A DNA stretch of 64,000 nt from Roseisalinus antarcticus (GTDB lineage Bacteria; Pseudomonadota; Alphaproteobacteria; Rhodobacterales; Rhodobacteraceae). This document shows, one piece after another, positions 12,316 to 16,941 of this stretch. The position numbers and the translations under genes are program-made. The notes beneath the pieces are model-generated. The model saw only the letters and a program-made list of their open reading frames with translations, made no database searches and was not told where the DNA came from. The stretch lies in the NCBI RefSeq assembly GCF_900172355.1, contig NZ_FWFZ01000022.1, forward strand, positions 1 to 64,000, read 5' to 3'. Each line of letters begins with the position of its first letter. Position 1 is the stretch's first letter.

Positions 12316-13275
12316 ATGCGCAGAGTTCTAATCGCCCTCCTACTCACGCCAAGCCTTGGCCAAGCCGAAGAATTTCTTCTGTCCTTGCCGGTAGAGTGCG
12401 AGCTCGGCGAAAACTGTCACATCCAGCAATACACCGACAGGGACCCCGGCCCCGACGCAGTTGATTTCACCTGCGGGCCCCTCACCTATGACGGCCACAA
12501 GGGCACGGATTTCGCCCTCCCCTCGCAGGCCGCGATGGCGGACGGCGTGACGGTCCTGGCCGCGGCGCCCGGTGTCGTGCGCGGCACGCGCGACGGGATG
12601 GAGGATATCGCCCAGGGCACCCCTGGCGCGCCGGACGTCTCCGGCCGGGAATGCGGCAACGGGCTGATCATCGACCATGGCGACGGTTGGGAGACCCAGT
12701 ACTGCCACATGCGCCAAGGCTCTGTCGCCGTCGCCTCGGGCGAGACCGTGAACGCCGGCACGCCGCTGGGTCTGATCGGCCTCTCGGGCCAGACCGAATT
12801 TCCCCATCTCCACCTCTCGGTGCGCAAGAATGGGGCGGTCATCGACCCGTTTGACACTGGCGACGGGTCGTCCTGCGGTGACACGCCTTTCTCCCTCTGG
12901 GCAGACCGCCTGACCTACGCCCCCGGAGGCCTGCTCTCGGTCGGCTGGGCCGCCGGCGTCCCGCCCTACGCAGAGGTGAAGGCCGGCACCGCCGATGACC
13001 GGAACGTCTCTCCCAACGGTCCCGCGCTGGTTCTCTGGGCGTTCGCATTTGGCGGCCGTGACGGCGACACCCTGCGCCTCGCCTTCAATGGCCCCCGCGG
13101 CGAGAACTTCCAGACCGAGGATACCCTGACACGCAACATGGCCCTCTTCACCCGCTCCGGCGGGCGCCGGACACCCCCCGACGGCTGGCCGCCCGGCCGA
13201 TACGAGGGGACGGTCGAATTGCTGCGCAACGGCACGCTCATCGACCGGATGGAGACGGAGATCACGCTGCGCTGA
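12316..13275 (+). CDS. secreted M23-family (LytM) zinc metallopeptidase
   Basis: A 319-residue protein with a signal peptide ending at about residue 18 (LTPSLGQA). The M23 core has HKGTD (first zinc ligands), then GNGLIIDHGDGWETQYCHM and FPHLHLSVRK, supplying the HxH pair and completing the LytM site. It should act in the periplasm on peptidoglycan cross-links. Extra cysteines around residues 30 to 50, 110 to 125 and 170 may form disulfides. The C-terminal 130 residues are a beta-rich domain of unknown role. It is convergent with the MotB-like gene, separated by a hairpin, which places an envelope enzyme beside the stator genes. Confidence 0.88.
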   Translation: MRRVLIALLLTPSLGQAEEFLLSLPVECELGENCHIQQYTDRDPGPDAVDFTCGPLTYDGHKGTDFALPSQAAMADGVTVLAAAPGVVRGTRDGMEDIAQGTPGAPDVSGRECGNGLIIDHGDGWETQYCHMRQGSVAVASGETVNAGTPLGLIGLSGQTEFPHLHLSVRKNGAVIDPFDTGDGSSCGDTPFSLWADRLTYAPGGLLSVGWAAGVPPYAEVKAGTADDRNVSPNGPALVLWAFAFGGRDGDTLRLAFNGPRGENFQTEDTLTRNMALFTRSGGRRTPPDGWPPGRYEGTVELLRNGTLIDRMETEITLR

Positions 13276-13386: not shown

Positions 13387-15777
13387 TCAGCGCTCCGTCA
13401 GTTTCAGCTCGATCCGGCGGTTGGCCGCCCGCGCCTCGGGGGTGTCGCCTTCGACCAGGGGCTGATGTTCGCCGAATCCATTGGCAGCCAGACGGTTGGG
13501 CGGAAAGCCCAGCACGTTTTCCATGTAGCGCACTACCGAAAGTGCCCGGGCCTGGGACAGCTCCCAATTGTCCGCGAATTCGCCCTGCCCGGACGGCTGG
13601 ACGTTGTCGGTATGGCCATCGACCCGGATGACCCAGTCGATCTCGTCGGGGATCTGGTCCGAAATCTCCGCCAGCAGGTCCGCGATCCCCGCGATCTGCG
13701 CCTCGCCCGCCGCCGAGAGATCGGCGCTCCCCGGCGGGAACAGCACCTCGGAGGAGAAGACGAAGCGGTCGCCCTCGATCCGCACCCCGTCGCGCTCGGC
13801 CAGCAGACGCCGCAGCTCGCCGAAGAATTCCGAGCGGTATTCCTCGAGGTTCTGCGCCCGTTCCGCGAGCGCCCGCGCCTCTTCGGCCAGCCTCGCATTC
13901 TCCGCCGCCTCCGCATCCCTAAGTCGTTGTTCGGCCGCAAGGGCCCGGGCCAGAGCGGTGTTCAGCTGCGACCCGAGGTTCTGGATCTGGACATCCGATG
14001 CCTGGTCTTCCGCATCGGCCACGTTCAAAAGCTCCTGCAACCGGCCGACCTGGCTGCGCAGGGCGCTGACTTGCTCGTTCAGCACGGCGACCTGGCGCTG
14101 CGCCTCGGCGGAGAGTTCCGATTCGCGCGATAGCTCCTGGTTGGCCACCGAAAGCAGCGCCTCGCGCCGTTGGGTTTCCGTCAGACGCTCCTCGGCCAGG
14201 GTCTCGGCCTCGGACCGGGCGGCCAACGCCGCCACCAGCCGCGCCTGCAACTCGTCCCGTTCCGCCGCAATCTCGGCCCGGGTCTCGTTGAGATCCTCGA
14301 CCCGGGTCTCCAGGGTCGATTGCGTCTCCAGCGCGGCGGCCAGCCGCTCCCGAAGGGTCGACTGCCCGGTTTCCGCCTCGGCGGCGATGTCACGGGCGGT
14401 GGCAAGCTCCGTCTCCAGCGCCTCGCGGGCGACCAGGGCGGCGGCCAACCGACGCTCGGCCTCCGCCCGGTCCAAATCGGCCTCTTCCAGCGCAGCCTCC
14501 AGCGCGGCGCGGGCCGCATCAAGATCACCCTCCACGGCCTCCCGCTCTGTCAGCGCGAGCGCCAGCCGGTCCGCGAGGTCGTCACGGTCCGCCTCCAGCG
14601 CGGCCAGGTCCCGGGTCACGCCCTGCTGGGCCCCGAGCGCGGAGGCAAGCCGCGCATCAAGCTCGGCGACCTCCTCGGCGCTCCGCTCCAGCCGGCTTTC
14701 CGCCAGCTGCCGGGCAACCAGCGCCTCTGCCAGCTGCGAATCCAGATCCTCCGCCGCCTGCCGGACCGCGGCCAGCAAGGTCAGCGTCTCTTCGGCCCGG
14801 CGCCGCTGCGCTTCCAGCGAAAGCGTCATGGCGGTCAGCTCGCTGTCGGCCTCTTCCAGCCGGGTCCGCAGCGCTTCGGCCGCCGCGGCCTCGGCCAGGC
14901 GGGCGGCCTCGAGCTCGCTTAGGCGTTCGGCATCCTCCGCCCGGTCGGCCTGCAGAGCGACCATCGCCTCCTCGGCCTCGGCGTTTTGCTGCCGCAGATC
15001 TGCCGTCAGCGCCTCCAGCGCCTCGCGTCGCGCGGCCGCAAGCCGGGCGGCTTCGGTGCTGGCGTCGATCTCGTCACGGGCCTGGGCAAGCGCCAGGTTC
15101 AGCGCTTCCTGCTCCGAGACCAACTCGGATTCCCGCGCCCTGGCCGCCTCAGCGGCCGTGACCAGCCGGTCACGCTCGTCCTCGAGCGTCTCCTGCCGGG
15201 CGGCGAGGCTGTCGCGTTCCTCGACCAGAGCCTCGCGCTCGGTGTTCAGCTCGGCGATCCGGCTGCGGGCGTCCGCCCGGTCGGCCAGAAGGCCCGAGAC
15301 CTGCGCCTCGAAATCGGTGATCTGCTCAGCCTGCTCGGCAATCTGTGTCCGGGCCTGGGCCCGGTCACGCTGCAGGCCCGCGACCTGCGCCTCGAATCCG
15401 GTGATGCGGGAGCGGGCGTCGGCCAGCGCCGCCTCCTGGGTCGCCCGCGCCGATTCCAGCGCCGCGATCCGGGCCGTCTGTGCATCCCGCTCGGCCCCAA
15501 GCTCGGACAGCGAGGTCGACAATGCGCCGACGCGATCGGCCAACCCCGCGGAGCGGTCCCGCTCCAGCCCCAGCGCGTTGGAGAGCGAGGCCACCTGGTC
15601 GGTCAGTTCCGTAAGCCTCCGGTCCTGGCCGGTGATGGTCTCGCGCAGGGTATATTGCAGCACCATGAAGATGGTGATGACGAACATCAGCACCAGCAGC
15701 AGCCCGGTCATCGCATCCACGAACCCCGGCCAGATCGAGGCCTGGAACCGTGCGCCCGATCGTCGGCTCAGCGCCAT
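13387..15777 (-). CDS. MotB-like stator protein with giant coiled coil and OmpA-type peptidoglycan-binding domain
   Basis: A 796-residue protein in three parts. Residues 1 to 14 are a basic cytoplasmic tip. Residues 15 to 42 are a single membrane helix with WPGFVDAMTGLLLVLMFVI, in which Asp21 matches the proton-carrying Asp of MotB (ADFMTAMM). Residues about 45 to 655 are an almost unbroken Ala/Glu/Arg/Leu-rich coiled coil. Residues 663 to 796 are an OmpA/MotB domain with VDGHTDN (719-725), NWELSQARA and NRRIELKL, which bind peptidoglycan. The gene starts 3 bases after the stop of the ExbB-like gene, so the two form one operon. By homology it is the rod of a proton-driven motor. The coiled coil is far longer than in MotB, TolR or ZorB. 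Its function is unknown. Confidence 0.85.
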   Translation of the reverse strand: MALSRRSGARFQASIWPGFVDAMTGLLLVLMFVITIFMVLQYTLRETITGQDRRLTELTDQVASLSNALGLERDRSAGLADRVGALSTSLSELGAERDAQTARIAALESARATQEAALADARSRITGFEAQVAGLQRDRAQARTQIAEQAEQITDFEAQVSGLLADRADARSRIAELNTEREALVEERDSLAARQETLEDERDRLVTAAEAARARESELVSEQEALNLALAQARDEIDASTEAARLAAARREALEALTADLRQQNAEAEEAMVALQADRAEDAERLSELEAARLAEAAAAEALRTRLEEADSELTAMTLSLEAQRRRAEETLTLLAAVRQAAEDLDSQLAEALVARQLAESRLERSAEEVAELDARLASALGAQQGVTRDLAALEADRDDLADRLALALTEREAVEGDLDAARAALEAALEEADLDRAEAERRLAAALVAREALETELATARDIAAEAETGQSTLRERLAAALETQSTLETRVEDLNETRAEIAAERDELQARLVAALAARSEAETLAEERLTETQRREALLSVANQELSRESELSAEAQRQVAVLNEQVSALRSQVGRLQELLNVADAEDQASDVQIQNLGSQLNTALARALAAEQRLRDAEAAENARLAEEARALAERAQNLEEYRSEFFGELRRLLAERDGVRIEGDRFVFSSEVLFPPGSADLSAAGEAQIAGIADLLAEISDQIPDEIDWVIRVDGHTDNVQPSGQGEFADNWELSQARALSVVRYMENVLGFPPNRLAANGFGEHQPLVEGDTPEARAANRRIELKLTER

Positions 15778-15780
15778 GAC

Positions 15781-16941
15781 CTACTGCCCCTCCCGGTCCG
15801 CGACCCCGTGCCGGACCGCGCGGCTGAGCGCCGCGATGTCGGTGCGCAGGTCGGCCATCACCTCCTGCCGGCCCGCGGCCATGTCTTCGAGTATCCGCAG
15901 AAGCTGCACGTCGATGGACCGCAGGCGCATCCGGCTTTCGGCGTCGATGCCCTCCATCCCGCTGTCGGCGATGACCTTGATCAGGCGTTCCTGCCCCTCG
16001 GCCACACGCGAGAGCTGGTCCGACAGGGTCGTTCCCGCCTCCATCTTCTCGGCCAGCTGGGTCATCGCCGAGGCGAGATCGCCCAGCCGTTCGTCGACCG
16101 CCGCGCGTCCGATGTCGGTCTGGGTGAACATCATCTGCAGCGCTTCCATCTGCTCGGACAGGTTGTCGATCACCTGGCCCATGACGCCGGCCTCGCCGCC
16201 CTCGTCACCCGAGATGCCGACGCGGGTGATGGTCGACAGCCATTCCTCGAGTTCGCGGTAGAACCGGTTCTGGCCGTGGCCCGCGAACAGCTCCAGCAGG
16301 CCCAGGACCAGCGATCCGGCCAGGCCGAGCAGCGACGAGGCAAAGGCCACGCCCATGCCGCCGAGCTGGGTCTGCAACCCCTCCTGCAGGCGGTTGAAGA
16401 TATCCGCGCCGCTCTCGCCCTCTTCGGCCGAAAGCGAGCCGATGGTCTGCACCAGCCCCGGAACGGTGGTGGCCAGACCGTAGAACGTGCCCAGAAGCCC
16501 CAGGAATATCAGGAGGTTGACGATATATCGCGTGATCTCGCGGTCCTCGTCGATCCGTTGCGAGACGGAATCGAGGATCGAGCGCGAGGAGGTGGAGGAC
16601 AACTGCATCCGCGCCCCACGCGACCGCAGCAGCGTGGCCAGCGGCGCCAGCAGCCCAGGCGCCTGGGTCAGGTCGTGGCCGAGACGTTCGGCCGCGAAGC
16701 CCTCGATCCAGCGGACCGACTGGATCAGCTGCCCGACCTGTCCGAAACAGGCGATCACCCCGACCAGGAAGACCAGCGCGATGAAGCCGTTGAGATAGGG
16801 GTTCGCCACGAAGACGGGCCCGACCCGCGGAAGGGCAAAGTAGATGCCCACGCCGACCAAAGCGAGCACGACGAGCATGGATGTAATCTGGCGCAGAGGT
16901 TGCGAAAACTGTGGCTCGGCCTCAGGTGCCCGCTTTGCCAT
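15781..16941 (-). CDS. MotA/TolQ/ExbB-family proton-channel protein
   Basis: A 386-residue inner-membrane protein with four predicted helices at about 20-40, 51-73, 138-160 and 194-219. The helix 3 and 4 block NLLIFLGLLGTFYGL with LGGMGVAFASSLLGLAGS is the MotA/ExbB channel signature. The C-terminal 160 residues are charged, amphipathic helices in the cytoplasm, longer than in ExbB or TolQ. Family knowledge predicts five copies around two copies of the MotB-like partner encoded 3 bases downstream, turning on proton flow. No helicase or nuclease gene adjoins it, so it is not a Zorya defence set, and no tonB, tolA, tolB or flagellar gene is near. The substrate or load is unknown. Confidence 0.85.
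   Translation of the reverse strand: MAKRAPEAEPQFSQPLRQITSMLVVLALVGVGIYFALPRVGPVFVANPYLNGFIALVFLVGVIACFGQVGQLIQSVRWIEGFAAERLGHDLTQAPGLLAPLATLLRSRGARMQLSSTSSRSILDSVSQRIDEDREITRYIVNLLIFLGLLGTFYGLATTVPGLVQTIGSLSAEEGESGADIFNRLQEGLQTQLGGMGVAFASSLLGLAGSLVLGLLELFAGHGQNRFYRELEEWLSTITRVGISGDEGGEAGVMGQVIDNLSEQMEALQMMFTQTDIGRAAVDERLGDLASAMTQLAEKMEAGTTLSDQLSRVAEGQERLIKVIADSGMEGIDAESRMRLRSIDVQLLRILEDMAAGRQEVMADLRTDIAALSRAVRHGVADREGQ

Follow-up and report, generated by a model that had tools for sequence, protein, structure and literature searches.

What is made by two adjoining genes, A and B, on contig NZ_FWFZ01000022.1 of the alphaproteobacterium Roseisalinus antarcticus, and what could a protein with a rod of several hundred residues do in the cell envelope? 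The window that we analyzed is the 64,000-nucleotide stretch at positions 1 to 64,000 of this contig, and all coordinates refer to it. An earlier note on this DNA had placed a stator-type pair at 13387-16941, an ExbB/MotA-like gene followed three bases later by a MotB-like gene, and these coordinates were exact. Gene A (15781..16941, minus strand, 386 amino acids) encodes the predicted ring subunit of a 5:2-type motor. Gene B (13387..15777, minus strand, 796 amino acids; NCBIfam NF006542) encodes a predicted axle and shaft protein and follows A on the same strand after 3 bp. The pair's fold resemblance, anatomy, conservation, and co-inheritance, together with its heptad register, make it fairly probable in our view that Alphaproteobacteria possess, beside the Tol motor and the flagellar stator, a third type of ion-driven rotary A5B2 motor made of A and B, one with a stiff shaft.

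Protein B combines a membrane helix, a rod, and a wall-binding domain, much as the earlier note had described. The single transmembrane (TM) helix (15657..15738, minus strand; approximately residues 14-40; SIWPGFVDAMTGLLLVLMFVITIFMVL) contains an ion-binding-type Asp at residue 21 within IWPGFVD, and WPGFVDal was near-invariant in 86 aligned sequences. The rod (13755..15643, minus strand; approximately residues 46-675) is a proline-free heptad coiled coil of 630 residues, counted from Asp+25 to the OmpA domain, against about 600 in the note. Its hydrophobic periodicity peaked at 3.5 residues, with a power of 5.16 compared with 2.09 for the highest of 200 shuffles. Directly before the OmpA domain lies a block conserved class-wide (13769..13842, minus strand; YRSEFFGELRRLLAERDGVRIEGDRF in the window), and the heptad phase shifted by about one residue in this YRSEFFG block in the proteins inspected. 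The C-terminus is an OmpA-type peptidoglycan-binding domain (13387..13752, minus strand; PF00691, E 9.3e-19) with GHTD (Asp724) and NRRIE kept in 86 sequences. B scored 750.7 bits against NF006542 (PRK09039.1-1, 'peptidoglycan -binding protein'; curated cut-off 388) and is thus a member of a named family without a described function.

To follow the register of the rod, we took the number of residues separating the TM Asp from the GHTD Asp and reduced it modulo 7, in two sets of loci. The class set comprised 82 alphaproteobacterial loci (80 genomes plus Sinorhizobium meliloti and Shinella); its 80 genome regions were the better-scoring among the 197 matches listed, with weak members under-represented, and the three of the 82 loci that lacked B were left out. 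The family set comprised 80 loci of the Rhodobacteraceae, the family of the window. Five of the family loci and four class proteins without a recognizable GHTD (L142, L174, L175, L195) were also left out, and the window is itself one of the 76 class proteins that remained. The class distances numbered 2, 0, 5, 14, 1, 0, and 54 in remainder classes 0 to 6 (p 3e-43), placing 68/76 proteins in two of seven classes: class 6 held 54 and class 3 held 14, and a single stutter of four residues separates the two. The 46 unique class lengths departed from uniformity modulo 7 (p 3e-17) and not at moduli 5, 6, 8, 9, 10, and 11 (p 0.31 to 0.95). Among tree-independent length differences in the class, 21/35 were divisible by 7 (p 5e-10), and a further 8 equaled 4 modulo 7. 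Two kinds of modulo 7 control, on the tail at the C-terminus of A and on the linker in C3, a third gene described below, were flat (p 0.97, 0.98, 0.58).

Phase along the rod agreed with the end-to-end distances. Heptad phase from the Asp was about 2.25 residues in 1049/1129 rod segments from 80 class proteins, compared with a fraction of 0.285-0.303 in shuffled rods, and was constant over all segments in 50 of the 80 proteins. Core positions were Leu/Ile/Val at a and Leu/Ala at d, a pattern found in parallel dimers. The Asp itself occupies position b of the heptad, away from the contact between the two B chains, where it could face the A ring. The two favored modulo 7 classes, maintained despite variable length, point to a single heptad register running from the membrane to the wall. 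The window's own B has an Asp-to-Asp distance of 703 (class 3) and was in phase in 35/39 segments (0.897).

Protein A is predicted to have four long membrane/cytoplasmic helices; it carries the motifs GLLGTFYGLATT in TM3 and GMGVAFASSLLGLAGSL in TM4 and ends in a helical tail. Both motifs were kept class-wide (89 sequences). An AlphaFold (AF2) model of A, built from 43 Rhodobacteraceae sequences with 62-88% identity to the window's A, had a mean predicted local distance difference test score (pLDDT) of 74.5. Foldseek searches with this model ranked ExbB, TolQ, and ZorA chains first (ExbB best, E 1.7e-3, probability 1.00), and structural Z scores over residues 14-252 were 11.6 for TolQ, 10.2 for ZorA, and 9.5 for MotA. 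As modeled, A is predicted to adopt the TolQ/ExbB/MotA-type ring-subunit fold. One further candidate feature of A, an 'LRSID' tail motif, was strong in Rhodobacteraceae; its strict pattern occurred class-wide in 1/83 sequences, the window itself, and we dropped it.

The earlier note had implied a rare, fused architecture, and we found instead a nearly universal gene pair of Rhodobacteraceae that is widespread in the class. A profile from 17 sequences matched A in 149/150 family genomes (a single match in 141 of the 149) and in 197/289 genomes of the class (a single match in 186 of the 197); several genomes with more than one match carried one gene split in two pieces. The sole family genome without a match is G308, and G689, under the same genus code, has one. 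Complete A-B pairs occurred in 75/80 Rhodobacteraceae loci, with no readable pair in the DNA examined at the other five. In the class set, A and B adjoined (gap -32 to +74 bp) in 79/79 loci in which B was found, of 82 with A. A was matched in 93/299 genomes of a phylum sample at 1e-5. Strong matches outside the class were confined to five genomes in three families, with B present in 4/4 of those fetched, and the other fourteen were weak (25 to 44 bits). The complete pairs in four genomes from other classes of the phylum (G634, G559, G494, and G572; L229-L232) were possibly transferred. Eight genomes in two families of the phylum (G496, G506, G535, G543, G547, G552, G558, and G566) had A matches of 25-43 bits in open frames of 328-362 amino acids, possibly representing a sister group to the ring protein.

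Is the pair one of the known motors under another name? The closest solved relatives of B by sequence are MotB (3khn, E 3.7e-19) and PomB, and likeness of its OmpA domain to MotD, MotB, and ZorB was evident in NCBIfam and PADLOC. This MotB-like domain, with the TolQ-like fold of A, might suggest that the pair is a paralogue of Tol or an additional stator of the flagellum, a reading that we consider quite improbable. The window's genome has a separate TolQ (272 bits), a TolR-like protein, and flagellar MotA1 (358 bits) elsewhere, as well as FlhA, and the stator-type pair of the earlier note is thus a different one from the Tol and flagellar motors of this genome. Neither FliM (E 1e-10) nor FlhA (E 1e-20) was matched in 21/79 other pair-bearing genomes, and TolA, TolB, and Pal genes were not among the recurrent neighbors of the pair. 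FlhA was added since FliM is an imperfect flagellar marker: the window's genome had no match to the FliM profile PF02154 at 1e-10 and yet has FlhA and MotA, and FliM of this lineage may be divergent. No TolQ model and no MotA model (TIGR03818 or similar) was among the NCBIfam matches of A, and A scored 15.8 bits against 500 and 15.5 against 100 for the curated NCBIfam ZorA cut-offs. Since A lies below the PF01618, TolQ, MotA, and ZorA cut-offs, the pair is not filed as Tol, Ton, flagellar, or Zorya. Flagellar, TolQR, or Zorya homologues were what the earlier note had named as counting against its reading, and the best family of B is not flagellar, TolR, or ZorB. The window's genome also contains another PF01618-positive protein of 235-243 amino acids (L003; G000:C96, approximately 15775-16002), and each of the next two proteins has a hydrophobic helix at its N-terminus; two of these three were scanned and had no NCBIfam match at 1e-5. 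These genes are perhaps another unusual motor operon.

A Zorya-type anti-phage system in which the long part has shifted from ZorA to ZorB is very improbable. PADLOC did return weak matches to ZorA1 (E 1.5e-11) and ZorB3 (E 1.2e-20), and ZorA was among the top folds for A. The pair is nevertheless nearly universal, mostly single-copy, and core, and sits among housekeeping genes. No phage homologue was found beyond the OmpA domain. In the available text of PMC11890865 the elongated ZorA tail is cytoplasmic, whereas the rod here follows the TM helix of B on the OmpA side. We tested nine neighbors in the window: gloB-like, clpA, M23, chaC, DUF2125, extensin-like, prephenate dehydrogenase, class I/II aminotransferase, and saccharopine-dehydrogenase-like genes. 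The AAA+ domains of ClpA were the only PADLOC matches among them, with no ZorC/D/E-like match, and the earlier note's observation that no Tol, Ton, flagellar, or Zorya partner lies alongside was borne out for these nine.

Adjacent to the pair in the window is the gene of a convergent secreted M23 peptidase (12316..13275, plus strand; PF01551), which the earlier note had correctly recognized and had offered as context for the pair. Our neighborhood search found this to be a local association: M23 adjoined 37/75 Rhodobacteraceae loci and was not among the listed class-wide neighbor clusters, and we do not count it as part of the system. ClpA (52/75) and ChaC (50/75) were likewise local to Rhodobacteraceae and were rejected as partners. 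Elsewhere in the class a different gene, C3, immediately precedes A in the same orientation, by coordinates in 67/80 class genomes outside Rhodobacteraceae (L131-L210; 66 by script and a further one, G106, in which the A frame as called overlaps C3). A whole-genome search at E <= 1e-9 found C3 in 69/80. C3 proteins have a signal-peptide-like start, a Pro/Ala-rich linker, and a C-terminal OmpA domain (PF00691 matched in 20/20 scanned) in which the usual GHTD and NRR positions are replaced, leaving degenerate peptidoglycan-binding positions. Outside Rhodobacteraceae the real third partner of the pair is this secreted OmpA-domain protein. Loss of C3 was rejected as a cause of long rods, since class median rod lengths were 227 without C3 (n = 11) and 269 with it (n = 65; p 0.34). 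Further recurrent class neighbors, named by sequence inspection and the S. meliloti record, were inositol monophosphatase-like (39/80 loci) and elongation factor P-like (33/80) genes and a convergent ATP-binding cassette (ABC) transporter (38 occurrences).

Rod length varied widely around the shared register. Rods measured 367-939 residues (median 479) in 75 Rhodobacteraceae proteins and 158-752 residues (median 265.5) in 78 class proteins; the longer rods of the former come from one family. Proline was rare, with 2 in 39,602 rod residues of the 75 Rhodobacteraceae proteins and 22 in 21,625 of 79 class proteins. Length differed in 68/75 protein pairs that were independent on a FastTree tree, while the A sequences in the 43-member Rhodobacteraceae alignment kept 62-88% identity to that of the window. 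A helix rises approximately 0.15 nm per residue, and fully extended rods would measure approximately 23 to 139 nm across proteins and approximately 94 nm in the window, exceeding normal periplasm width as the earlier note had pointed out. Residues 349-515 of the window's B contain internal repeats starting L-A-x-A-L with a spacing of mostly 28 or 35 residues, and 125/231 such spacings over all proteins were multiples of 7. To judge from these sequences, duplication of heptad blocks is suggested as the route of rod growth.

In the motor that we infer, with respect to 5:2 stoichiometry, ion identity and flow, rotation, rod orientation, and a task in envelope upkeep, A would form a membrane ring of five subunits around two copies of B. 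The B dimer would be the axle, with Asp21 facing outwards to the ring, ions passing at Asp21, and the ring turning relative to the dimer. Beyond the membrane the TM dimer would continue, keeping its heptad register, as a parallel coiled coil of two strands that reaches the OmpA domain, and B would act as a shaft rather than a tether, an axle without the flexible linker of MotB. The periplasm is some 20-30 nm wide, and the persistence length of a two-stranded coil is near or above 100 nm. Being stiff and of a length that exceeds the width of the periplasm, the rod most likely lies obliquely or flat along the wall. The motor may then be braced against, or pull on, peptidoglycan tens of nanometers away, in keeping with the earlier note's proposal of work on the cell wall over a long distance. 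With C3 as a third component in most of the class, B may brace the turning ring, strain the wall, or move C3. The fuller version of this picture, a register-locked and length-quantized drive shaft along the wall that turns or strains distant peptidoglycan, belonging to a core motor class whose C3 partner was lost in Rhodobacteraceae, where the shaft is longest, is a tentative possibility. MotB dimers have themselves been modeled as a coiled coil through the membrane in the available text of PMC10659934.

The same variability in length can be read differently. The TolQ/MotA scaffold might serve for gating, with B as a strain gauge, in which case the pair would be a wall tether or tension sensor and not a motor. 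No moving partner is known, and a nearly free length (68/75 independent pairs) would be odd for a part that reaches a fixed target. The TM Asp of B and the TM3/TM4 core of A, on the other hand, belong to the best-conserved positions, which is what ion-driven work would lead one to expect, and we consider a tether or sensor unlikely.

Several results weigh against the proposed shaft-bearing motor. A scored 19.2 bits over residues 114-201 against PF01618 (MotA/TolQ/ExbB), under the cut-off of 22.9, Foldseek returned nothing for the A model at E <= 0.001, and helical bundles can also give Z values near 11, calling for caution on the A fold match. C3 had no orthologue-grade match in 61 Rhodobacteraceae genomes, where the best scores of approximately 20 to 41 bits were generic OmpA, compared with 58 to 170 bits for C3 genes adjoining A. 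The register lock is also relaxed in the window's own family. Rhodobacteraceae distances numbered 8, 3, 12, 11, 3, 4, and 34 in classes 0 to 6 (p 2e-12, uncorrected for kinship), with 45/75 in the favored two; only 8/32 independent length differences were multiples of 7 (p 0.076), and 1916/2435 rod segments were in phase. In the window's rod the heptad amplitude dipped near residues 270-290, 440, 520, and 609. The AF2 monomer of B (mean pLDDT 67.3) had low-confidence breaks (<50) at residues 150-166, 288-342, and 556-560; both AF2 models are of single chains (A 74.5, B 67.3). Together the breaks and dips make stutters or hinges possible in the window's rod.

Such hinges would allow the rod to fold back into a short multi-helix bundle, giving an ordinary short tethered stator. 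The breaks below pLDDT 50 at the three sites above, the amplitude dips near 270-290 and 440-609, and the relaxed register in Rhodobacteraceae speak for this reading. The AF2 chain was modeled without its partner strand, and the breaks coincide with neither proline nor loop. A hairpin bundle with loops, moreover, needs no length change in sevens, and phase was constant across all segments in 50/80 class proteins with rods up to 752 residues. We consider the fold-back unlikely and retain the extended shaft as the preferred reading.

That a motor-like pair kept in 197/289 alphaproteobacterial and 149/150 family genomes has no described function leaves a clear gap in what is understood of the cell envelope. 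The earlier note's 'undescribed system' stands in that no study of the A-B pair was found in the open-access PubMed Central (PMC) literature, the search covering neither subscription papers nor preprints, and falls short in that B's family already has a name, though no function. The main text of a paper on rhizobial Rgs growth factors (PMC7327166) contains no ExbB, OmpA, MotA, MotB, 'peptidoglycan-binding', or SMc0385, and from the available text of the Rhodobacter DalA and CenKR papers the peptidoglycan-binding/OmpA-family proteins RSP_1880 and RSP_1033 could not be matched to B. A review proposes, in its available text, that periplasm width sets the length of the MotB periplasmic rod (PMC9389320), and a variable length with a fixed register contradicts this simple idea. 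If the shaft carries torque or strain, it should accept insertions of 7 residues but not those of 3 or 5. C3 upstream and the heptad-quantized shaft are new here, and the function and shaft are the new part.

The nearest known systems each share part of this design. TolQR/ExbBD resemble the pair in the fold of A (the best structural matches), in a single-TM partner with an Asp, and in the envelope setting. They differ in the small TolR/ExbD domain, where B has an OmpA domain and a coiled coil of 158-939 residues, and no TolA or TonB lies beside the pair. MotAB/PomAB have the same order in B of TM-Asp, periplasmic part, and OmpA domain, and the OmpA domain is closest to MotB/PomB by sequence. 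The pair, in contrast, has no flagellar partner gene alongside, is kept in genomes without FliM/FlhA matches, and has a continuous coiled coil in place of a plug and flexible linker. Models NF006542-NF006546 (PRK09039.1-1 to -5) have 342 to 627 positions, compared with 796 residues in the window's B. Zorya ZorAB show weak profile similarity in both subunits and a similar ZorA fold, but their elongated part is the cytoplasmic tail of ZorA (PMC11890865, available text), while here it is the rod of B on the OmpA side, and the pair is core with no effector gene found among nine neighbors. The GldLM gliding and type IX secretion motor is alike in its periplasmic shaft dimer, which for GldM is 18 nm in the available text of PMC9389320. 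The GldM shaft is built of folded domains and belongs to Bacteroidetes, whereas the predicted shaft of this alphaproteobacterial pair is a heptad coiled coil that would span approximately 23 to 139 nm when extended.

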